Positions 6,921-63,097 of a stretch of 64,000 bases of DNA are shown piece by piece. The position numbers were made by a program, and so were the translations under genes. The stretch covers positions 1-64,000 of the IMG/VR virus record IMGVR_UViG_3300006735_000025; one strand, given 5' to 3'. The stretch is from a virus. How positions within the stretch are numbered: the stretch's first letter is position 1; each line of letters starts with the position of its first letter. A model generated the notes under the pieces. It was not told the DNA's origin. It ran no database searches and saw only the letters and a program-made list of their open reading frames with translations.

Positions 6921-9542
6921 TTAAAAATCTACTTTTATTACAAATTGTTGTGCGTTATCTCTTCTGACTGGACTCTGAAGTTTAGCGATAGCCATTAAAT
7001 CAGGGTTTCCGTCTTTATTATCAAATAAACCAATTTCAGTTATGTAAGTATAACTAGCATAAGCACTATTTTTATCATAATACTGTTGCCAAGTAGGGTT
7101 AAGAGAACTCCCTTTACCAACATTTCCAGCTCCAAACTGAGATGTTGATAGATTAACATTGTATTTCATTTCATATATAGTAGCCATTATATCACTTTCT
7201 AATAAACCATTAAAAAAGTATTCATCACCAAACTGTAAAGTTTCAGGTCCAGTTAAATTAGCTGCTCCGGTTGTTGTTGATGCAGACGGTATAGTTATAT
7301 AGTCATTTAATTGGTATGTTGTAGCTACCCTTTTAAGGTAATCTGTCAAATAAAACTTAGTGGATGCACTACTTAATTGACAACCACTAAACGGTACATT
7401 CGCGTTTGTGGCACCAGTACGAAAAGTACTATTAGTACCACCTATTTGATTTGTTACATCTACTTTTTTCCATAAATTAGGATTAGGGTCTTCTCCCGGA
7501 TTAGTAACTTGGAATAATAAATGTATTCTATTAGCTTGCCACCCTGTACCCCCGGACACATTAGCTGGACCACCTAAATCAAAAGGTTTTAAATATGGAA
7601 ATTCTTCTCCAAAGTCTATTTCTAAATCCACTGGGTCTGCGTTTGGTACATTAGTTACTGGTACATAATAATTACAATGTAGTCCAGTTGTGTACCCACT
7701 ATTACTTTCTAATAGATAAGTTAGGTAAAGTCCTTGGTCTACTTGTGGGTTATTAAATACACCAACCGTTGACGTTTCACCAGCACAATTTGTACCAGCT
7801 GGTATTTTTGTAACTCTAGGTGCTGGTAAAGTCCAATTTCTATTTGATTTGTACGACATAGCCGCTACTAACTCTTCATCGTGAATTGTAACCATTTTTA
7901 AATCTGGCCAAACTTTACCAACTGGATTAGGACCTACAGTTGTTTGTCCTAAATTAGTAGTTGATGGTCCAGCGTTATCATCGTATAAATAATAATATCT
8001 TAAACCGTCATCATTCATATTGTCATTAACAGAAGACTGCATAACATATGGTTTAGTTGGGAACACGTCAAATCCTGCAGGGTCAGTATAAAAACACTGT
8101 CCAAATTCAGTAGCTCCCATACAACCTTCTTGTTGACTACCAACGTATTTTTTATGCCACATTAAATTAGGCATACATATTCTAAAGTTTTTAGCTTTAC
8201 CAATATCACTTTTTACTAGTGCTGTATCTTCTTTTAAAGCAAATTTTTCACCATAAAAATTAGAAATAGTTTGATTGGTGTAGTGTAATACCGCGATGGC
8301 TTTTTGTCTACTTGGTTTTACAACTCTAGGATTTTTATAAGAATCATAGTACCAAGAAGAACTTTCCATTGTTGGGTCGTAAGTATCAGGAATAGTACCT
8401 GTATCTATTTGTCCTGTGTTACTGTGATAACCTAAGTATTCTTTGGTACCACAGTATCCAGAAGAACCATAATAATCTACTGTTTCAAAGCCTTCACCCA
8501 CACTTGAGTCTCTTACACCAGCTGGCGCTTCTGTCCAGTTTATATTCATATTCCAAATTTTAACATCTTTAACAGAAACATCACAATTATTTTCAAAAGA
8601 TAATGACCCTGGAGACCAATAAGGTACTGGTGTATCTGCACCGTACCAAGTTAACATTGGATTTGTTGATTGTGCTGAATAAGTTCCACCCGTAACATTA
8701 GGGAATACTTTTACACAAGCACCTACTAAAGTACCTGTTTTACCAGAGTATTGTTTTATATCTACCGCGTAGGCTCCAGTTGAAGCTGAATAATCCATAA
8801 AGTTTGGTAGTGCTCTGTCTAGAGTGTACCATAATGGTTTTGCTGTACTACCTGACCAAGATGAACCAGTTCTACCAGATGTACTATTTCCACCAACAAT
8901 TTGGTAAAAAAGTTGAGCTGAACCACCAGTACATGGTAAATCATGACAACTAGTTGTACCTGTAGACCCACTTTGGAAGAAGTACGTAACACCTAGAATA
9001 TCACCAACTACTGGTGTATATCCAGGTAATGTACCAGCAGAAAATGCTTGATCTTGGAATGTATTAGCAGATAAAAGTGTTATTCTACTACCACCAGTCA
9101 TTGCAGATAAAGGGAAAAAGAAATTAGAGTTTAATGTGTAAGCTGAACTTACCTCAGCTCCAAAATCACATGTAGTAGCTGTATTTCCACTATAAAATCC
9201 TCTTTGTGAAGCTCTATTAAACACCTCTTCATAACCATGTGCAGCTTGTGCAGCTCCAAATGTCTGATTACCAGATGTTCTAGTTAATGGTAATGGATAT
9301 TTAACATGTGCCTTATTTTTTTCAGGAACCGGGTTTAAATTCTGTGCGTTAAAGTTTGCTTGTTGTATATTAACACCATTAACGAGAGACGGCAATCTTC
9401 CATTACAGTCGTAACAATATTCACTATCACCAACTTGAAATAGTTCTATATTTAATTGTCCTTTTGATAACTTTTTTCTACCGGCATCTGTAAGTTTTAC
9501 AGATATTATTCCTTGTGTACTGTTTTTTAATATGTAACTCAT
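6921..9542 (-). CDS. Large tail fibre-like protein, LTxxGR N-domain and ITEIGLFD C-module (paralogue 3)
   Basis: An 873-residue protein combining both modules seen separately nearby: an N-terminal LTxxGR-type domain (ISVKLTDAGRKKLSKGQLN, then FQVGDSEY) and a C-terminal module with YITEIGLFDNKDG and LMAIAKLQSP. Composition is typical of fibre shafts, rich in Gly, Ser, Thr, Asn and Tyr. Several scattered cysteines occur (for example YCYDCNG). No enzyme motif is visible. The N-domain probably anchors the protein to the baseplate and the C-module is probably distal, by analogy with fibre organisation. The 38-base gap upstream holds the A-x-TATTTAT motif 17 bases from the ATG, so this gene may open a transcription unit with the 333-residue gene. 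Function as a fibre is inferred. Confidence 0.6.
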   Translation of the reverse strand: MSYILKNSTQGIISVKLTDAGRKKLSKGQLNIELFQVGDSEYCYDCNGRLPSLVNGVNIQQANFNAQNLNPVPEKNKAHVKYPLPLTRTSGNQTFGAAQAAHGYEEVFNRASQRGFYSGNTATTCDFGAEVSSAYTLNSNFFFPLSAMTGGSRITLLSANTFQDQAFSAGTLPGYTPVVGDILGVTYFFQSGSTGTTSCHDLPCTGGSAQLFYQIVGGNSTSGRTGSSWSGSTAKPLWYTLDRALPNFMDYSASTGAYAVDIKQYSGKTGTLVGACVKVFPNVTGGTYSAQSTNPMLTWYGADTPVPYWSPGSLSFENNCDVSVKDVKIWNMNINWTEAPAGVRDSSVGEGFETVDYYGSSGYCGTKEYLGYHSNTGQIDTGTIPDTYDPTMESSSWYYDSYKNPRVVKPSRQKAIAVLHYTNQTISNFYGEKFALKEDTALVKSDIGKAKNFRICMPNLMWHKKYVGSQQEGCMGATEFGQCFYTDPAGFDVFPTKPYVMQSSVNDNMNDDGLRYYYLYDDNAGPSTTNLGQTTVGPNPVGKVWPDLKMVTIHDEELVAAMSYKSNRNWTLPAPRVTKIPAGTNCAGETSTVGVFNNPQVDQGLYLTYLLESNSGYTTGLHCNYYVPVTNVPNADPVDLEIDFGEEFPYLKPFDLGGPANVSGGTGWQANRIHLLFQVTNPGEDPNPNLWKKVDVTNQIGGTNSTFRTGATNANVPFSGCQLSSASTKFYLTDYLKRVATTYQLNDYITIPSASTTTGAANLTGPETLQFGDEYFFNGLLESDIMATIYEMKYNVNLSTSQFGAGNVGKGSSLNPTWQQYYDKNSAYASYTYITEIGLFDNKDGNPDLMAIAKLQSPVRRDNAQQFVIKVDF

Positions 9543-9580: not shown

Positions 9581-12500
9581 TTAATATCCTCCACCACCAC
9601 TACCTCCTAAATTTCTTCCTCTTTTTATATAAGGTGAGTAAAATGTGGTTTTATCAATTATAAATGTTATGTTTTTTGTATTATTTTCTGTTGTTATAGT
9701 TTCACCATTTAAAAGTGGGTAATACCTATTAATTTGTGCGTTATAACTATAAGTTCCTGGTTCAGGTACTAATAGATTAAACTGTGTTGTGATTTTACCA
9801 CTTTTAGTGGATTTAAAACTTTTTAGTTCTTCTTGTACAATGTCACCATTTTCATCAAATACTACCAGTTTTACATCCTCTATTAAATTTAATTTTTTAT
9901 TTATAGTCACATTTACCGTAGGTTCTTTTGTACTAGATAATCCCACCACATCGTATTGTGTTAAATAAAACATTGTTATATTGTCTGAAGATATAAAATC
10001 TGTAGTTCCATCTACAACATAAGTTAAAAATTGTATTCTATTGGTGGCTACCTTTTCAAAATCTACCCCTTCTGTCAAAGCTTGACCATTTAATAATAAC
10101 TGTATACCACCAAAAGGTTCGTAATCTAAATTTATATAGTAATTTGCACTATCCTTATACATTACTGAGGTTGTATCAGTACCAACAGTACCTACTGTCA
10201 ATCTTTGATTATAATAACTCCTATTACTATTTGATGGGTATATTACTTGAACTATGTCACCATTTCTAACAGTTCTAGGTGCCATTTGTAGTCTAATTCC
10301 ATCCCAAAAATAATCACCTGTTGTTTCACCTGTGTAATTATTTTTCCAAGGTGCTGTAACTAAAGAACTTGTTTGGGTTAAAGTTATACCATTAACTATG
10401 ACTTGTACGTTAGATTTTGGTGGGTAAGGTAATGTTAATCCTGACCAAGTAAAAGCACTTTGACTACCTGAAAAATCTGGTACCAAATCTACTGTTTCAC
10501 TTTTAGTTACCATTCTTAAATTAGTTGGTCCACCCGTATTTTTAAAACTTATATTTGGATTATATAATGACGGTTCTTCCGGAGTATTCACTAAACACAT
10601 GTAGTAGTCTTGTGATGAAATATAAGAACCACCTATGTTGTTATATGTGTCAACCCATACTGGGTCTTTTGTACTTTTATCTTTAATTAAAAAAGAAGAC
10701 TTTACGATATATTCCCAAGTAGTCGCTGTAGGCAATCCAGATAATGGTATTTGTGTGGTACTACTTAATGAAATACCTCTTTTCCTATCTTGTTCATTAG
10801 ATAATTCACTCATCGTATTAAAAATGTAACTATACCTAGGTCTTTCCTGTAATTTACTTTGTAAATAATCATAACTATATACCTCCATTTTAAGGTAACT
10901 CTTTTTTAATAACAAATCAGAAGTGTTACCAGATGTATTGGCTGTTATAATTGGTGTGTTACCTGTGTACCCTGATAAATTTATAATTTTTAATGTCTCT
11001 AACTTATTACTATAAACACTTAAACCCTCCAATACCACATTTGGTTCTTTAAATGTTTGTAAAGTAGCTGAAGCTTTTGGTTTTATACTTGGGATTGTTA
11101 GCTCGGAACCACATCTTGGATTATAGTCACAGTTTTTAGAAAATTGTACGTTATTGTTACCTACAACATCACCTAAACTTTGTGATTGTATTGTTACATT
11201 AGGGTCGTAATTTGTGGTTTCTGTTAGTGTTATAGCAGAAGTATTTGATATAAAACTATTGGTTGTTGGTGTTACAGTATAATTTGCAGCTGTACCTGTA
11301 AATCCAACCCCATAAAATATACCGAAACTTGAGTTGGCCATGTAACCTGTTCTTGTACCACCTAAAAATCTTTGTAATTCAGTTCCACTAACCCATGTAG
11401 GTGCACTTTCTGAACTTCCAGACCACGTATTACTGTCTGTCAAATCAAAATTAATTTCGTGATATGTTTTGAATACGTTTGAATCTCCAATATCTGTGGT
11501 TGCACCAGTCGCGTAAGTGTTAGACTTCTCTCCCATTGTTGGTGTCATTTGGATTTTAAACCTTTCTCCTTCATCACCGCTTCTTGTAACTCTAACTTTA
11601 ATAGCTCCTTGGGTTGTCATATATCCACTTTGGGTGTAAGGACTTCTATGTGCTGTATCTGGACTAACAACATCCCTAGGTCCATTTCTTAAAACCACAT
11701 GACTAAATTCTTTGTATTGTGTAGTAACATAGGTTGTTTCTCCTGGGTCTAAACTAGCTTCATAATTTTTTAATTCATTAAGTAATATTGCGTCATATAA
11801 GTCTGCAAATGATTTTCCTCCATCTGAAACACCCTCAACAGATGCTCTTACAGCTATTGTTATAAGACTTAGGAAAATATCATCAATACCGTATCTTTTT
11901 AAAGCTTCATCTGCCGTATCTACCCCACCAGCTTTTAACATCTCTGGATTATCACTGAGGTATTGGAGAATCGCTTGTTCTTGTGACTTTCTAACTATTT
12001 CTTGAATCACCCTATCATCAGATTTTTCTGGACTTCCTTGAATTATTTGTCTCCCATACGCATCCTGTTGGAATCCTCTTGCTGATTGTCCTCTATTAAA
12101 ATTAATAGATGTTCCACTAGTTTGGTCAATATCTAATGTTAGGTAGTGGGTAGCACCACTTTGACCATAGGTACCATCACCATCTCTAAAGTAAGCTAAA
12201 ACTACCGAAGCTGAGCCATTTGAAGTAAATTGTGTTGCTCCGCTTTGGAATAAGTAAACGTCGTGTGTGTAGTCTAAGTAACTACAAGAACTTATTAATG
12301 ATATTGGTCTTGGTGTTACTGTAGATGCTGAAATACTAGATAACCTATATGTACTTTGACAATAGTTATTTTCTAATTTACTAGCGTATTCTTTATAGTC
12401 CGTAACCACATCAGATTCACCAATATAAGGAAATATATTATCAGCTCCTGCATGAGCCAACATAACGTATTTAAATGTATTACTATTTTGTGTTAATATT

Positions 12501-13621: not shown

Positions 13622-16600
13622 TTAATATCCACCCCCACCACCTGAGGATGTTGTACTACTACCATAACTTACTGGTGTTGGGTTGGTGTAGTTTAGTTTA
13701 TTAGTCGTATAAAAATCTCCTCCCATGATTGGTGTTAGGTCATCATGTGATTCTAATGTGTGTACCGCTCCGACCATAGGGGTACTATCATGTATGTGAT
13801 AAAAGCCAACATAGACATCTCCATTAGGAAGTAAATACTCATCACCAGATGTGTATAAATTACTTTTATCACCAATACAATCTTTTGTGAATACTTTTGG
13901 TGTACATGTATTACCTACATTAGCACAATAATCTTCAGCTTTTTCCTCACACTCCCCACAATCAAATAAAGATGTGTCTGTTATTACATCTGTAGTACCA
14001 TAAAATGGATGTAAATTTTTTGTAAATTTAGTATCTTCACAAACACAATAAAAACTACATTTAAAACCTTCATCTGCTTTTATTTGTGTTATAGGTTCTG
14101 ACCTACTTGTTTTAATTATAACTGGTTGACCATCTATTGTTAATTGATTGTCAACATTATCTAATTGTTCCATAATTTTTATTTCACTTTCAATTAGGTC
14201 ATATTTTTCTTGTAAGGTAGGGGTAAAACAAGGTACGTATATTGTATCTTTTGGTGTTATAACTATGTAATGTTCTTTGTGTACACCTCTAACGTTTGAT
14301 ATTGTATTTTTTATAACATAACTGTGACTTATTTGTGGAAATTTATAGTTACATATTATAGAGTCCTTTTGGTTATACCTAGGTAAGTTAAAAACTAATA
14401 TTCCCGATTTCATCTGAACTAAATCTTTTCGGTTTGGTATGTAATAATCGGTTAATTCATTTTGTTCTAATTGTTTTGCCCAATTATTAGTTGGTGTTTC
14501 ACTAGATATATCTAATTTAAGTGTTTTAATATTTGTCTCATTATCTATAAAAGTTAAATTTTTAAAAGTTTCTGTTGTAACTATAGGTGCTGTAATAGGA
14601 CTGTAGTTTGGGTTTATTACGTATAGGGTACCTTTTGTAGTTTGTTCAGTTTCTATCCCACCAGCATCTATAAATTTTTGTGGTGAAGATATTTTTTGTG
14701 GGTTGACAAATAAACTTTTTTGTAATGTTGATGTACTTCCAGTGGTTGGACTATATTTTGTTACTCTATAAAATGGGGACTCTATTGGGTTTCCCGATAA
14801 ATCCATTTTATGACCTAAATTAACTTCAACTGTAGCGTCACCACCAGTAACTTTAGATACTGACTTAAATGTTAAATTATATTTTAACATTACAGTTTCA
14901 CCACTATTTAGACTAATTAGACCAGTATCTAATATAATTGGTACTCTGGTGTGATACACAGTATTAGCGGATGTACCGGAAGCGTAACAATTACTAAACC
15001 CACTAAACGTATTTTGTACAATATTGGTTGATTCTGTTAAATATTGATTAGCGGAACTGTTTGTTGTTGGACTTGCACCTATAGTGGTACTTACAAGATT
15101 ACTGGTAACCCCACTTATAGTTTCTTTTTCTAAAAAAATATTAAGGTCAAAATTTAACAACCCACTATCACTATTTAAACCATGTTTTCCTGGAAAATAA
15201 ACACCTTCAGTATCTTCTTTTACCGTTTCACCTTCGGTTAAACCATATTCTAGTATCGACGCGTTTATTAATCTTTTTATTTCATATTCTGTAGAAGGGT
15301 AAGAAATAGATGATGTAGTTCCGGATAGGTAATTAGTAGTTAAGTACTCACACCATTTAGTATCTTTATATTTAAAATCTAAGTAGGCACTGTATTGAAA
15401 TTTGTATGTCCCACCACTTAGACTTTTATATATAGTGTAATTTTTAGGGTCACCACTTTGTATTGTAACAGGTCCCGAACCAGATAACGAATTTGTTGTT
15501 CCTGTTTGAGCTGAAAGACTTTGCCAAGAATTAAGTGGTACCCAAATAGGTGAAGTAACACCTACAAAAGGTCGATGTTCTATTCTTTTAGTATTATTTA
15601 AAGGTATTACTATTCCTGTTGTTGGTGATGTTACAGCTGTATATCCATTCCCTGAAAAGTATATATCATAGGTGTTTTGTCCAGTAATACCACCTGAAGT
15701 ATAACCTGTATATTTAGTTGAGGCACTGAAAGATTCCTTTATTGTGGAGTATGTTGTGGCGAAAAAATCATTTCTTAAATCGTATATTGGAGAGTAGTAT
15801 TCCAATTCACAAGTCCAACATTTTTGATACCCTAATTCAGCTTGTTTTTTTCTACATGTATCAGCACAAGATTCCGAAACTTGTGGTGAAACGATAACTG
15901 TTTCTAATTTTTCTAAATTATCATTAGAATATTTACAAGCACACTCAGTTCCTTTATATGTTATATTTTTTTCACTATATTCATTAACTAAAGTTCTTTT
16001 TGATGGACAAACTGTTAAACTTTTAAGTTCACTACCACCATAATAAGAAATTGTTAAATCATTAAAATAATCATGATTTGTTCTAGTAATCCACTGATTA
16101 ATACTATTATATGTACGTGGTTGTGTTTTACCGTAATCTGTAGTGTAAGTTTCTATGTTAGCTATTTGGGTTTCTTTTAGACTTTGTTCAAAACTATTTA
16201 AGTGTTCAGGACTGTAAAAACTAAATTCAACACACCTATTTAAATCTGTAAAATATCTATTATCCCTTAACTCATCTACCCAACTTAGTGGGTAATTAGT
16301 AATACCCCTATTAAAATATGGTGAACTAGCTACTATTTTATTATTTTCTAATTTTCTAGAAATATTGTATGGCAATTCTTTTTCACTATCTTTTAAAAAA
16401 TCACCTAAGGTAAGTTTATATTTTTCTTCATTTTTAACTATAAAAATTTCTGAAGATTTTAAATAATAATCTGTATATTCTTGATTTAAAGAATTAAAAT
16501 AATCAAAATAATTAAACTTAACTTGCCCCAGTTCCAAATCTTTGGTTGTCATTTCAACATAACTAGTAGGTGCTTTATCTAGAGTTTTAATCCTTCTAGG

Positions 16601-36620: not shown

Positions 36621-36830
36621 TTATCTATTAACTCTTTGAAACATCCCCTCTAGAATTTCTTCTATTGCTGATATTACGGCGTACTCGTCATTACCCCAGT
36701 TAGATTTATGACGTTCGATAAGTCTTTCAACAATATATTTAACATCCTTGTCTAGTAATTCCCATTTTCTATCATCTTGGGGTTGCCAATACGACTCTTC
36801 TCTTAATATTTTTTTAATCAGGTTTTTCAT
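36621..36830 (-). CDS. Small charged protein of unknown function
   Basis: With the ATG at 36830 it has 69 residues; a GTG six codons upstream is in frame but less likely. The protein is strongly charged and probably helical (LDKDVKYIVERLIERHKSNW, ISAIEEILEGMFQRV). Its first residues, MKNLIKKILREE, recall the amphipathic leaders of the proteins at 60082-63097, though the match is short. It overlaps the end of the DUF5522-like gene by 17 bases and is the last gene of the DNA-metabolism island. No function can be assigned. Confidence 0.55.
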   Translation of the reverse strand: MKNLIKKILREESYWQPQDDRKWELLDKDVKYIVERLIERHKSNWGNDEYAVISAIEEILEGMFQRVNR

Positions 36831-37053
36831 TATTAATATAAATATCACTTCTAAGTTCTTTATTTAACTTAAGGTGTGATGGCCAAAAAGGACAGTGTCT
36901 ACAACCACTACCACAACAACTACCTCTTTTTATATGATACTCCTCTGTCATTACCATAGTACCATTTTCCCAATAAAAATCTTTTGGTTGTAATTTTGGT
37001 TTTAAAAATTCTTTATAGTGTAGTTCACTAATCCAATCATCATTTCTTTTCAT
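36814..37053 (-). CDS. DUF5522-like small cysteine protein
   Basis: A 79-residue protein with the strongly conserved block MVMTEEYHIKRGSCCGSGC followed by RHCPFWP. This is the pattern of the DUF5522 family (EYH, RG-x-CC-x-x-x-CRHCPY), found mainly in Bacteroidota and in some eukaryotes; its function is unknown. The four cysteines in CCGSGCRHC probably bind a metal or an iron-sulfur centre. It overlaps both neighbours, a zinc-ribbon protein upstream and a small helical protein downstream, so the three are probably co-translated. Its location beside ribonucleotide reductase suggests redox or metal chemistry, but this is a guess. Transfer from a Bacteroidota host is likely. Confidence 0.72.
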   Translation of the reverse strand: MKRNDDWISELHYKEFLKPKLQPKDFYWENGTMVMTEEYHIKRGSCCGSGCRHCPFWPSHLKLNKELRSDIYINNEKPD

Positions 37054-59495: not shown

Positions 59496-59984
59496 TTAGT
59501 AAACTAATATACATCTATCTGGTCTTAGTGTTGCTGCTATATTGGCCATTCCCTCATCACTATAAGATAAATCATTAAAGTTAACATCTGTTAAGAAACA
59601 ACCTTGTAGTACCCATTTTTCTACTACCACACCTGTTGGGTCTAACATTTCTAAGTCTATATTCTTTTTATATCCTGCAGCGTAACCCATTCTACCAGTT
59701 ACTGACTCTGCGTGTAATCTTACCCATTCCATCAATGCTTGTGAAGCTGACGGTCCGATTGGGTCTCTAAATGTAACATTAATAGTGTTCCATACAAATC
59801 TACCAGCTACGTATGTTGACGTATTTAAGAAAGGTATCTCCACAGAACCTATAGTAACTTGTGGTCTTGAAGTACTTTCTACGTACCATTCGTTAATACC
59901 TAAAGATGAATCAAATCTCATTATAAACCTATTCTTTTTCTTTGGTTCATACGGTACGGGCATTTTCATTAATAAATCGGCCAT
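59496..59984 (-). CDS. Tail tube protein, T4 gp19-like
   Basis: A 162-residue protein, almost the same length as T4 gp19 (163). The pattern KNRFIMRFDSSLGINEWYV, STSRPQVTIGSVEIPFLNT, RFVWNTINVTFRDPIGPSAS, ALMEWVRLHAESVTGRMGY, LEMLDPTGVVVEKWVLQGCF and NDLSYSDEGMANIAATLRPD follows the gp19/contractile-tail tube family throughout. The protein stacks as hexameric rings to form the inner tube through which DNA passes. It is flanked by a 97-base upstream gap with the A-x-TATTTAT motif and by a strong terminator downstream, fitting high-level independent expression. The sheath gene lies three genes upstream rather than next to it, unlike T4. Confidence 0.9.
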   Translation of the reverse strand: MADLLMKMPVPYEPKKKNRFIMRFDSSLGINEWYVESTSRPQVTIGSVEIPFLNTSTYVAGRFVWNTINVTFRDPIGPSASQALMEWVRLHAESVTGRMGYAAGYKKNIDLEMLDPTGVVVEKWVLQGCFLTDVNFNDLSYSDEGMANIAATLRPDRCILVY

Positions 59985-60081: not shown

Positions 60082-60942
60082 TTAACTATCAATCTTAGAT
60101 ATTATAATCTTATTTTTTTCTCCTTGTGATGTGTCATAAATAAAAAATTCTACCCCAGGATATTCTACAGATAATTCTTTTTTAATATAATCCATAACAG
60201 CATCTATATTTTTTCTATCATCATCACTAAAACCAATACTAAGTTTATCGTACTCACCGTTGGTTAATTTTTGAGCTCCATTAACAACTTTTTCTACATA
60301 ATCTTTTAAAGCTATTTTTTTACCCTCTTCTGGACTATCAGCGTCTGAATCTAAACCAAATTTATCTTTAAATTCTGGAGACGATACCGGCGAATAGTCG
60401 TTTTGGGATAGGTAAAAGTCTATTTTTTCCTCCATATTCATTTCACTTGTGGATGGATAAACTTTTTCTATATTTTCTAACATATTTTTAACTTCGTTAG
60501 GTTCAAAAGTCATACCAATTAACAATCTTACACCTTCTTTTATTGCTGCTGGGGGTGTACCTCTAGCTGTAATAATAGAAAATGGGTTAGCATACATTAT
60601 TGACTCTTTAAATTTTTCAAAACTAGGTGCAAACTTTTCTTCTTCTATAGCCTTTCTAACATCTGTTATAAAAGTTTGTGGGTTAGCAAAATCCATAAAA
60701 GCGTGGTCTGTCAATCTATAATCACTATCATTTCTTACATCAGCAAAATCTTCAGTACTCACATTAACCGGTATCCAATCTAATCCGTCTTTTTTTTCCA
60801 TCTTAATTTCAGTAGGCATAAAAAGTATATTATCGTCCCAATCAAAAGAATAACCACGTATTTTTTCTGTAGTCATTACTTCACCTATCTCTTTAACTAA
60901 TTTTGTTAATTGTCTTTCTGTAAGAATTAAACTTCTTTTCAT
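60082..60942 (-). CDS. HAD-superfamily phosphatase-like protein with N-terminal LTERQL module
   Basis: A 286-residue protein. Residues 1-21 (RSLILTERQLTKLVKEIGE) form an amphipathic leader like those of the next two proteins. A HAD-like hydrolase follows: motif I YSFDWDDNILFMP (nucleophile D34, acid/base D36), motif II FSIITARGTP (T125) and the acidic motif IV IGFSDDDRKN (D240-D242). HAD enzymes remove phosphate from nucleotides, DNA ends or small molecules. The C-terminal 45 residues (YPGVEFFIYDTSQGEKNKII) look like part of the same fold. It sits between sheath and tube genes with a terminator 26 bases upstream and no other enzyme nearby. The leader suggests packaging or virion association, but that is an inference. 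Confidence 0.68.
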   Translation of the reverse strand: MKRSLILTERQLTKLVKEIGEVMTTEKIRGYSFDWDDNILFMPTEIKMEKKDGLDWIPVNVSTEDFADVRNDSDYRLTDHAFMDFANPQTFITDVRKAIEEEKFAPSFEKFKESIMYANPFSIITARGTPPAAIKEGVRLLIGMTFEPNEVKNMLENIEKVYPSTSEMNMEEKIDFYLSQNDYSPVSSPEFKDKFGLDSDADSPEEGKKIALKDYVEKVVNGAQKLTNGEYDKLSIGFSDDDRKNIDAVMDYIKKELSVEYPGVEFFIYDTSQGEKNKIIISKIDS

Positions 60943-60947
60943 ATACT

Positions 60948-60954
60948 ATAAATA
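60948..60954 (-). promoter_or_regulatory. A-x-TATTTAT motif upstream of the HAD-like gene
   Basis: The coding strand reads AATATTTATAGTAT directly before the ATG at 60942, leaving 5 bases. The terminator of the upstream gene lies 26 bases from the ATG, so any promoter must fit in this short space. Confidence 0.3.
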
Positions 60955-60967
60955 TTAAGTTATTAAA

Positions 60968-60998
60968 TAAAAAAAACCCCACATTTCTGTAGGGTTTT
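60968..60998 (-). terminator. Rho-independent terminator with GAAA tetraloop after the S74-containing gene
   Basis: The - strand reads AACCCTACA, loop GAAA (a GNRA tetraloop), TGTGGGGTT, then a run of T. The stem contains one G-U pair on this strand; the other strand would have a mismatch, so it is directional. It lies 28 bases beyond the stop at 61026. Confidence 0.85.
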
Positions 60999-61025
60999 AT
61001 AATTCAGTATATTTAATTTATTGTT

Positions 61026-61973
61026 TTAACAAGGACAAGGACCCCATGGACCTCCATTACATGAACACTCATGAAGTAAATTATCAATCCATGCGATAAG
61101 TTTTTTCCACCAACTACGTTTCTTCGCTGTATTTATTTCGTCTATAGTAGTTCTACTTAAATTACCAGCAGACATTTCTTGACCTGCTTTTCTAATTAAT
61201 GCTATAGCTTCCGAAGCCCATGGTATTTCTCTCCCTGTCGGCTCCTTAGCTATATCAGCTTCAAAAGCGGCAAGTTCTTCACTAGCACCCATTATCTTCG
61301 CACCCATTCTCTTTTGTTCATCTGGAGTCATCATCATACCAGAAGGTCTATCGGATTTCATATCAACATCAAATTCCATTTCTTCATTACCTCTAGCCAT
61401 TGGGTCGTCAGAACCACCACCTTGACTCATACCCCCAAAACCACCAAAATCATCAAATGGATTATCTGGAAATGTACCACCTGGGTTTCCTAGTCTATCA
61501 ATATCAAATGGTTCATATAATTTTTCGTTTATGACTCTTTTAATAACATTTGTTAAATCAGATTCTTTTAATCTAATAGATTTTCTTTTAGTTGGCTTAA
61601 TTTCTTCGAAAGCAACATCAATCATTCCATAGTCTACCGTTTTATACCCATTAGAATGTGTTTTTACGGCTTTCTTTGGTGCGTGTTCAGCAAGAACACC
61701 TCTATATGTACCACCACCAAATCTAGCTTTGTTTTTATATTCAAATTCGTAAATAGGTATACCTGATGGTGATTTACCAACTTTTTTAATATTTTTCTTT
61801 AATCTTCCATCAGAAGCCGCACCTATAGTTGTAATAATATCAATTATTGCTTTTACAAACCATTTACGTCTTTTTTTATCTTTTTTCTCCTCAAATATAT
61901 TAGTTTTAGCGTTAGCTATTCGTCTAACAATTTTAGTTAAATCAGATTCTTTTAATTTTATCGTTCTTGCCAT
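61026..61973 (-). CDS. Virion-associated protein with internal S74 peptidase domain between two LKESDL modules
   Basis: A 315-residue protein with a modular order. Residues 4-23 (TIKLKESDLTKIVRRIANAK) and 132-151 (SIRLKESDLTNVIKRVINEK) are near-identical amphipathic modules. Between them, residues 53-125 form a peptidase S74 (intramolecular chaperone) domain: ASDGRLKKNIKKVG with the Ser54/Lys59 dyad spacing of the endosialidase type, then IPIYEFEYK, YRGVLAEHAPKKAV and VDYGMIDVAF. S74 domains normally end tail spikes and cleave themselves off after trimerisation. After the second module comes a Gly/Asp/Met-rich linker, a helical segment and a cysteine-rich end (HECSCNGGPWGPCPC). The upstream 59-base gap holds two A-x-TATTTAT copies and a palindrome; a terminator follows. 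S74 in this setting is unusual. Confidence 0.68.
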   Translation of the reverse strand: MARTIKLKESDLTKIVRRIANAKTNIFEEKKDKKRRKWFVKAIIDIITTIGAASDGRLKKNIKKVGKSPSGIPIYEFEYKNKARFGGGTYRGVLAEHAPKKAVKTHSNGYKTVDYGMIDVAFEEIKPTKRKSIRLKESDLTNVIKRVINEKLYEPFDIDRLGNPGGTFPDNPFDDFGGFGGMSQGGGSDDPMARGNEEMEFDVDMKSDRPSGMMMTPDEQKRMGAKIMGASEELAAFEADIAKEPTGREIPWASEAIALIRKAGQEMSAGNLSRTTIDEINTAKKRSWWKKLIAWIDNLLHECSCNGGPWGPCPC

Positions 61974-62005
61974 TTTTAAATAATTTTTTATTTTATTGTT
62001 ATTCT

Positions 62006-62018
62006 ATAAATATAAATA
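62006..62018 (-). promoter_or_regulatory. Double A-x-TATTTAT motif upstream of the S74-containing gene
   Basis: The coding strand reads AGTATTTATATTTATAG, two overlapping copies (62006-62012 and 62012-62018), 32 bases before the ATG at 61973. This is the only gap where two copies overlap. Confidence 0.3.
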
Positions 62019-62034
62019 CTTTATATAAAGTATT
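62015..62034. repeat. Perfect 20-base palindrome at the end of the Lys-rich gene
   Basis: AATACTTTATATAAAGTATT is fully self-complementary and overlaps the TAA stop at 62033-62035 as well as one copy of the A-x-TATTTAT motif. It could form a weak AT-only hairpin or bind a dimeric regulator. Confidence 0.45.
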
Positions 62035-63097
62035 ATAACCTACCTGGGTTATATTCTCTCCCAGTTTTATTTACCCTATTAAACCATTTTTTCATATCTT
62101 TAATTTCTGATTCTGTAATAGGATTTGTTGTTTTTAAAGTTCTATTTTCAGTTGTTATATTACCTTGTGTTGGTGGTGTTCCCTTACAAGGTACTTTTGT
62201 ACTAGATTTAGGACATCTTCCATTAACAGCGGAAGTAATGACACCATTTCTGTCTCTACAACACATTTTTTTAACTGGTGATGTTTGAGGTTTAAGTGGT
62301 GATTCTTGAGGTTTGTTATCTCTCATTCCTTCATTTGCTAATTGTTCTAATTCTCTCCAAGAATTTGGCATTTTTCCAGACTCTCTTTTAAGTTGTTCTA
62401 ATTTACCACTATATTGAGACTTAAACTCGGCCCATTCTTTAGGGTCATTATCACCATCATCACCAGGAACTACCTTCTGGTCTCTCCATTCTTTCCAGGA
62501 TACCCATACTTTCCAAAGTTGGATGGCTAAAAGCCACCATTCAGTTAAGAGTTGTTTATTTTCATTTAAAGGTTTTTTAGTTGCTGCTTTTTTAACATCC
62601 TTCATTAACTTCATAGCAAAATCAGTTTTTGCTTTTAGTTGTTTTTTCCATTTTGGTCCGGCCTTCATGGTTTTTTTCTTCCAACCATCAACTTTACCTT
62701 TTAAGAATCTTTCAGCTCCTTTAATATTTTTATTTTTTAAAAAAGTATCTACTTTTTTCTTAAATCCTGGTGACCAGGTAGACATATTAAAATTTGGTGC
62801 TGGAGGATTTGTTGGTCCTGTTCCTGTTGTAGGTTTTGGTTTACCCTTTTTCGCCTTATACTTTTTAAGAAAAGCTTTTTTATCCGCAAGATACTTAGGG
62901 TCTTGACCTCCCTTTTTATAGTCTTTAGGGTTAGGGGCACCAGGTGTGTTAACATTTTGTTCACTTATAATCCCAAGTAACCTTTGTAATTGTGTTTCAG
63001 TAATTCTAACTTTTTGTTTTTTATTTTTAGTAAAAGTTTTTTTGTTACTTCTAGGTAACCCTATTTCTTCAGTAAGGTTTCTTTTTTTAAATTTCAT
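62033..63097 (-). CDS. Lys-rich virion-associated protein with ITETQL module
   Basis: A 354-residue strongly basic protein. Residues 30-47 (VRITETQLQRLLGIISEQ) are a copy of the amphipathic module found in the two downstream proteins. Related short ITE/LTE segments occur near the start (RNLTEEIGL), in the middle (LLTEWW) and near the end (NPITESEIKDMKKWFNRVNK). Residues about 60-180 are very rich in Lys and Pro (KKYKAKKGKPKPTTGTG), as in DNA-binding internal proteins. Near residues 275-305 a four-cysteine segment (MCCRDRNGVITSAVNGRC, then VPCKG) could bind metal or form disulfides. No enzyme motif is present. It follows the sheath gene after 9 bases and ends at a 20-base palindrome. An internal or injected protein is the most attractive reading. 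Confidence 0.58.
   Translation of the reverse strand: MKFKKRNLTEEIGLPRSNKKTFTKNKKQKVRITETQLQRLLGIISEQNVNTPGAPNPKDYKKGGQDPKYLADKKAFLKKYKAKKGKPKPTTGTGPTNPPAPNFNMSTWSPGFKKKVDTFLKNKNIKGAERFLKGKVDGWKKKTMKAGPKWKKQLKAKTDFAMKLMKDVKKAATKKPLNENKQLLTEWWLLAIQLWKVWVSWKEWRDQKVVPGDDGDNDPKEWAEFKSQYSGKLEQLKRESGKMPNSWRELEQLANEGMRDNKPQESPLKPQTSPVKKMCCRDRNGVITSAVNGRCPKSSTKVPCKGTPPTQGNITTENRTLKTTNPITESEIKDMKKWFNRVNKTGREYNPGRL

Follow-up and report, generated by a model that had tools for sequence, protein, structure and literature searches.

Putative capsid-packaging leader tags shared by otherwise unrelated proteins of T4-like phages

Why should three adjacent and otherwise unrelated genes of an uncultured T4-like phage, lying between tail sheath and tail tube, carry the same short amphipathic module? 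The question arises from a stretch of 64,000 nucleotides (hereafter, the window) of the 74,239-base uncultured virus record IMGVR_UViG_3300006735_000025. The initial annotation had noted four copies of such a module in these proteins, three of them ending in I-x-E, and had proposed a packaging or docking tag removed by a T4 gp21-like protease at (L/I)xE. We first asked whether the module is real, then what it most likely does, and finally how well other explanations survive.

The shared module and its distribution

All four copies of the approximately 19-residue module are located where the initial annotation had placed them (Table 1), and three of the four end in IxE (IGE, INE and ISE). The fourth copy, the first one in the S74 protein, ends in IANA, but is followed four residues later by IFE, which is LFE in L004 and ISE in L007, two of the relatives compared here. 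The three proteins show no significant BLASTP similarity to one another. A first profile, built from nine copies aligned on the [T/S/K]E..L core, gave 24 hits of at least 10 bits in nine related genomes (labelled G below), with none in reversed and none in shuffled proteomes. After iteration, and with seven more genomes added, the profile gave 60 hits, again with none in reversed or five-fold shuffled sets. What is more, another set of 68 loci, collected with the sheath gene as bait and including a few from records already used, gave 63 hits of at least 10 bits and none in reversed sequences. In other words, the module is far beyond chance, and such segments do open many proteins, as the initial annotation had stated.

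Table 1. Coordinates of the genes, modules and candidate cleavage sites discussed in the text; a slash marks a proposed cut.
Position	Strand	Feature	Residues	Sequence or motif
36795..36830	-	Short leader of the small ORF 36621-36848, resembling the 3' half of the module; also in its G001 homologue		MKNLIKKILREE
59496-59984		Tail tube gene
60082..60942	-	HAD-like protein
60880..60942	-	Leader of the HAD-like protein; predicted cut after E21	1-21 (module 6-21)	MKRSLILTERQLTKLVKEIGE
60082..60879	-	HAD-like phosphatase core, predicted packaged cargo		DWDDN, IITARG, K208, GFSDDD
61026..61973	-	S74 protein; its putative S74 region matches phage virion structural / DNA ejection protein families	S74 region 41-118
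61890..61973	-	First module of the S74 protein; nearest (I/L)xE is IFE28	1-28 (module 5-22)	IKLKESDLTKIVRRIANAKTNIFE
61524..61580	-	Second, internal module of the S74 protein	132-150 (module 133-150)	SIRLKESDLTNVIKRVINE
62033..63097	-	Lys-rich protein
62960..63013	-	Module of the Lys-rich protein	29-46 (module 31-46)	KVRITETQLQRLLGIISE/Q
62540..62569	-	Further candidate gp21-type sites in the Lys-rich protein	177-179 and 184-186	LNE and LTE
62111..62119	-	Further candidate site in the Lys-rich protein	327-329	ITE
63107-67225 (of the record)		Tail sheath gene

The consensus of the module is (K/I)I(K/R)L(T/K)ES(D/E)LxR(I/L)(I/V)K(R/K)(V/I)(I/V)(K/N)E(N/Q). Column 6 is always E, column 9 is L in 97%, and column 19, the last residue of the motif, is E in 79%, although the first profile did not include that column. 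This glutamate is preceded at -2 by I, V or L in 86%, with V at that place being outside the strict T4 motif. It is the peptide and not the DNA that is conserved: copies within one genome differ mostly at synonymous sites (pN/pS of 0.4-0.5). The copies are also strongly amphipathic, with a helical moment of 0.63 as compared to 0.26 for random 14-mers.

The proteins that carry the module are a mixed group, including HAD-like, S74 and Lys-rich proteins, a UPF0227-like alpha/beta hydrolase, small acidic two-module proteins, and many short proteins of unknown function. G028 (50 kb) has 15 carrier genes and G021 (88 kb) has 10. Most copies are N-terminal, while a minority are internal or at the C-terminus. 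The tail structural genes of the window's contig do not carry the module, whereas module genes lie next to or near the capsid gene in G004, G005 and G019. A tblastn search with a 22-residue consensus against 50,697 phage records gave no match at E<=10, so close copies of that consensus are not seen in isolates, and the genomes of the phages immuto and Mel-JY01 have no LTESDL hits. The Lys-rich protein has no relative among the phage records.

Leader swapping and the (L/I)xE end

What, then, does the module do? In our view it is likely (with a probability of roughly 0.8) a capsid-targeting propeptide that works like the capsid targeting sequence (CTS) of T4. Namely, it would bring unrelated proteins into the assembling prohead core, where at maturation a gp21-type (S77) protease would cut after the terminal (I/L/V)-x-E and leave the cargo inside the head, probably for injection with the DNA. 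Packaging, cleavage and injection are all inferred, as we found no virion proteomics or cleavage data for any module protein, and no virion proteomics of immuto. That said, the computational tests run here support the proposal of the initial annotation.

The HAD family provides the sharpest test. Its predicted phosphatase core (YSFDWDDN...GFSDDD) is conserved in hundreds of phage contigs, with D34, D36, T125, K208 and D240-D242, covering the DxD, T/S, K and acidic motifs I-IV, invariant over 36 sequences. Foldseek matched it to viral PNKP/HAD phosphatase models, while Pfam does not know the family and PDB sequence and fold searches gave no significant match. The 10-30 residues before this core, on the other hand, are not conserved. 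They are of the LTESDL type in the window, of the IIITEKQL, LTESQY, RRLLFEIT or ITEGF types elsewhere, and in some phages, huge ones among them, of a T4 CTS-like type (FDQFIRES, FNHFISES, FELFLNEN; MDILRFDQFIRES, MIKKFNHFISES, KNFELFLNEN). For comparison, T4 IPIII begins MKTYQEFIAEA. Across 65 distinct phage leaders, 56 hold (L/I)xE where shuffling gives 21.7 +/- 3.5, and across 26 non-redundant leaders 22 hold it against 9.7 +/- 2.3, although two HAD leaders (L074 and L079) lack the motif. In 80 homologues from bacterial genomes, mostly Kiritimatiellae and Verrucomicrobia MAGs, the stretch before the core holds it in only 9, the shuffled expectation being 7.5. It should be noted that start codons in this bacterial set were chosen by rule, and that one of the 80 (L216, in a Prochlorococcus record) looks like a phage copy. 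So the motif belongs to the phage context. Consistent with an extension outside the folded domain, AlphaFold2 predicts a core mostly at pLDDT above 90 and a leader below 50 for residues 1-7, 11-13 and 15-25, with a short helix at 9-19, and the matches to most bacterial homologues begin near or after the leader.

The S74 family repeats the pattern. Namely, homologues in L005, L006 and L008 carry a different leader, LLTERFQELAGI...(I/L)NE, and an unrelated neighbouring gene in L006 begins with the same leader. Cleavage of the window's S74 protein into two products, as suggested by the initial annotation, remains an inference, though the second copy and its VINE/VLNE site are conserved in L004 and L007. 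On the other hand, one Lys-rich homologue (L007) has KINP in place of IISE.

Do these phages possess the enzyme that such a scheme requires? The window's own 74-kb contig has neither the protease nor the capsid gene, but it is a fragment and absence there is uninformative, so its protease is inferred from relatives. PF03420 (gp21 type) and PF07068 (gp23) both occur in G005, G007, G019 and G021, which carry the module, and in G030, G032 and G034, whose sheath genes are relatives of the window's. The capsid prepeptides end LINE/Q, LLTE/A or LINE/A in G005, G007, G019 and G021, IVSE/A in immuto, LISE/A in Mel-JY01, and INE/N and MNE/N in huge phages, where the cut position is inferred from alignment and T4 precedent. 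These match leader ends such as RVINE/Q, RVLTE/Q and IISE/Q. Moreover, in module proteins (L/I/V)xE is in excess only inside the module, with 110 observed against 109.9 expected outside it. A polyprotein with many sites is therefore not general, even if the Lys-rich protein has 6 sites against 2.6 expected for the whole protein.

The closest precedent is the CTS of T4 IPI, IPII, IPIII and Alt, a short N-terminal leader shared by unrelated proteins, ending in (L/I)xE, and used together with the gp21 protease, gp22 scaffold and gp23 capsid protein. In T4, gp21 cuts after L/I-x-E, the CTS is 10-19 residues long, the internal proteins co-purify with gp22, and Alt is cut at both ends (PMC9026906), which offers a precedent for C-terminal copies. 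The LTESDL-type tags, however, share with the T4 CTS only the (I/L)xE end and are otherwise unrelated to it in sequence. They are also longer (about 19-22 residues), clearly amphipathic, present in internal and C-terminal copies, and found in 10-15 carrier genes on some contigs. In phage P1, the N-terminal ~30 residues of DarB suffice to package a reporter protein (PMC9024508), but no consensus is shared among Dar proteins and P1 appears to lack a separate scaffolding protein. Ejection proteins of the phiKZ/SPN3US type have N-terminal propeptides removed by a gp21-related protease after a glutamate (PMC5694885, PMC9026906), but these are mostly >100 residues long and rarely shared between unrelated proteins. 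Finally, the injected anti-restriction proteins Ip1-Ip3 of T4 are likewise dissimilar small accessory proteins sharing only a leader (PMC12373910), while the function of the cargo here is unknown. While the class of mechanism is known from T4, the sequence dialects appear to be new: our literature searches found no description of this leader family, only work on T4, P1 and SPN3US, although one in subscription journals or preprints is not excluded.

The proteins that a phage packages and injects are known for very few phages, and in T4 such proteins disarm restriction systems. If our reading is right, a short profile together with an (I/L/V)xE check would turn sequence alone into a predicted list of packaged proteins for large numbers of uncultured T4-like phages, including new candidate anti-defence proteins and enzymes.

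Alternative explanations and possible scaffold mimicry

The alternative that survives best, though we find it unlikely, is a docking tag without cleavage, in which the helix binds a common virion or host partner, such as the scaffold, the capsid lattice or the tail, and stays on the protein. The internal and C-terminal copies and the strong helical moment speak for it. In particular, C-terminal copies (for example, G005_70722 ending KNVVKEQNK) could lose only a few residues by the proposed cut, and for those docking alone is more natural. However, a pure docking role does not explain why the (L/I)xE end is kept by leaders otherwise unlike each other in phages but not in bacterial homologues, nor why it equals the end of the capsid-protein prepeptide. 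Considerably less likely is a cytoplasmic role, whereby the tag would direct early proteins to a host target or assembly site (membrane, RNA polymerase or phage nucleus) rather than the head. Indeed, in G028 and G021 many module genes form arrays of small proteins of unknown function, like accessory early genes. That said, HAD homologues carry T4 CTS-like leaders instead, module genes adjoin head genes in several genomes, and the packaged internal proteins of T4 are themselves dissimilar accessory proteins sharing only a leader (PMC12373910).

Two further readings are very improbable. Ordinary local homology, with one duplicated domain in paralogous genes of one lineage, finds some support in carriers that are homologous across genomes (the small acidic two-module proteins of G003-G006), but not in the three window proteins, which show no significant similarity outside the module, nor in the variety of the carriers. 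A translated DNA- or RNA-level element (a ribosome-binding region or recombination hotspot) or a functionless mobile sequence, although the module is usually near the start codon and occurs in near-identical copies within G028, is disfavored by the use of different synonymous codons, by the internal and C-terminal copies, and by the strong positional residue constraint.

How might the leaders be recruited? One possibility, which we hold as a lead and not as a result, and which is somewhat less likely than not, is that packaging leaders of T4-like phages are lineage-specific dialects imitating terminal peptides of the phage's own scaffold protein (gp22). In this scenario, the cargo would join the core as a false scaffold subunit and be released by the same protease, and cargo genes moving between phages would have to change dialect. 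If confirmed, this seemingly new idea would explain how targeting signals arise and why they differ so much between lineages. Most notably, in the cultured Flavobacterium phage immuto, the scaffold-position gene (between protease and gp23) ends VSEQVSRWQKLAGIIK, and two unrelated proteins begin with a second class of leader, MKKQILSEQFRRMQKLAGIITE/S and MKKQILSEQFKRMQFLAGIITE/S. Their ungapped scores against the scaffold C-terminus are 49 and 42, while the best of 1,098 internal control segments is 30. G005 has one similar case (43 against 30 of 1,217). A pattern made post hoc, after seeing these cases, hits 9 places in about 1,500 proteins: three scaffold C-termini, five N-terminal leaders and one other. 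The LTESDL class itself, on the other hand, resembles the N-terminal helix of the scaffold (MKEEINQLVKESLSEQ in G021) in register, but only weakly, as 4-13% of other proteins score as well, with G021 alone giving p=6e-6. In T4, gp22 begins MLKEQLIAEA, which is close to the end of the T4 CTS.

Proteins near the tail sheath gene and in the immuto scaffold position

The tail sheath is 1372 aa long, about twice the T4 sheath, with large insertions. In the same record, a 534-aa protein appears, by eye, to combine cell-wall-enzyme-like and peptidoglycan-binding-like regions with a dual-specificity-phosphatase-like C-terminus (HCTAGKDRTG), while a 361-aa protein has a leader-like start, MKLVDIIYGVIVEQ, and a long RED-repeat (EREDRERED) stretch. 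Note that the immuto scaffold-position gene, between prohead protease and gp23, is annotated as 'DNA polymerase phi-like protein', which is probably a misannotation caused by its acidic low-complexity stretches.

Coordinates of the features (L numbers, loci; G numbers, genomes)
Feature	Locus	Locus position	Record position
Tail sheath	L001	108-4226	63107-67225
534-aa protein	L001	7960-9564	70959-72563
361-aa protein	L001	10023-11108	73022-74107
immuto scaffold-position gene	L296	16083-17324	MW353176.1 125582-126823
45-aa ORF	L203 (G022)	8993-9127	
45-aa ORF	L210 (G025)	11284-11418	
HAD family	L216-L295		
Lys-rich module protein	L139 (G007)	10381-11679	
Lys-rich module protein	L195 (G021)	13852-14316	

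Leader-like pieces and module proteins in other genomes

The 45-aa ORF is made almost wholly of two leader-like pieces, namely MKIEKKLIKESLGYSQ... and, at its C-terminus, IIITESQLEKLLEKLQK. The HAD family of the window is absent from Pfam, yet it is present in many bacterial genomes, mainly Kiritimatiellae and Verrucomicrobia. Finally, the Lys-rich module proteins of G007 and G021 share a CARGKSAAK(A/S)KF(D/K)VYPSAYANGYAVQVCKGK domain (phrog_27331, unknown function), perhaps a DNA-binding packaged protein.
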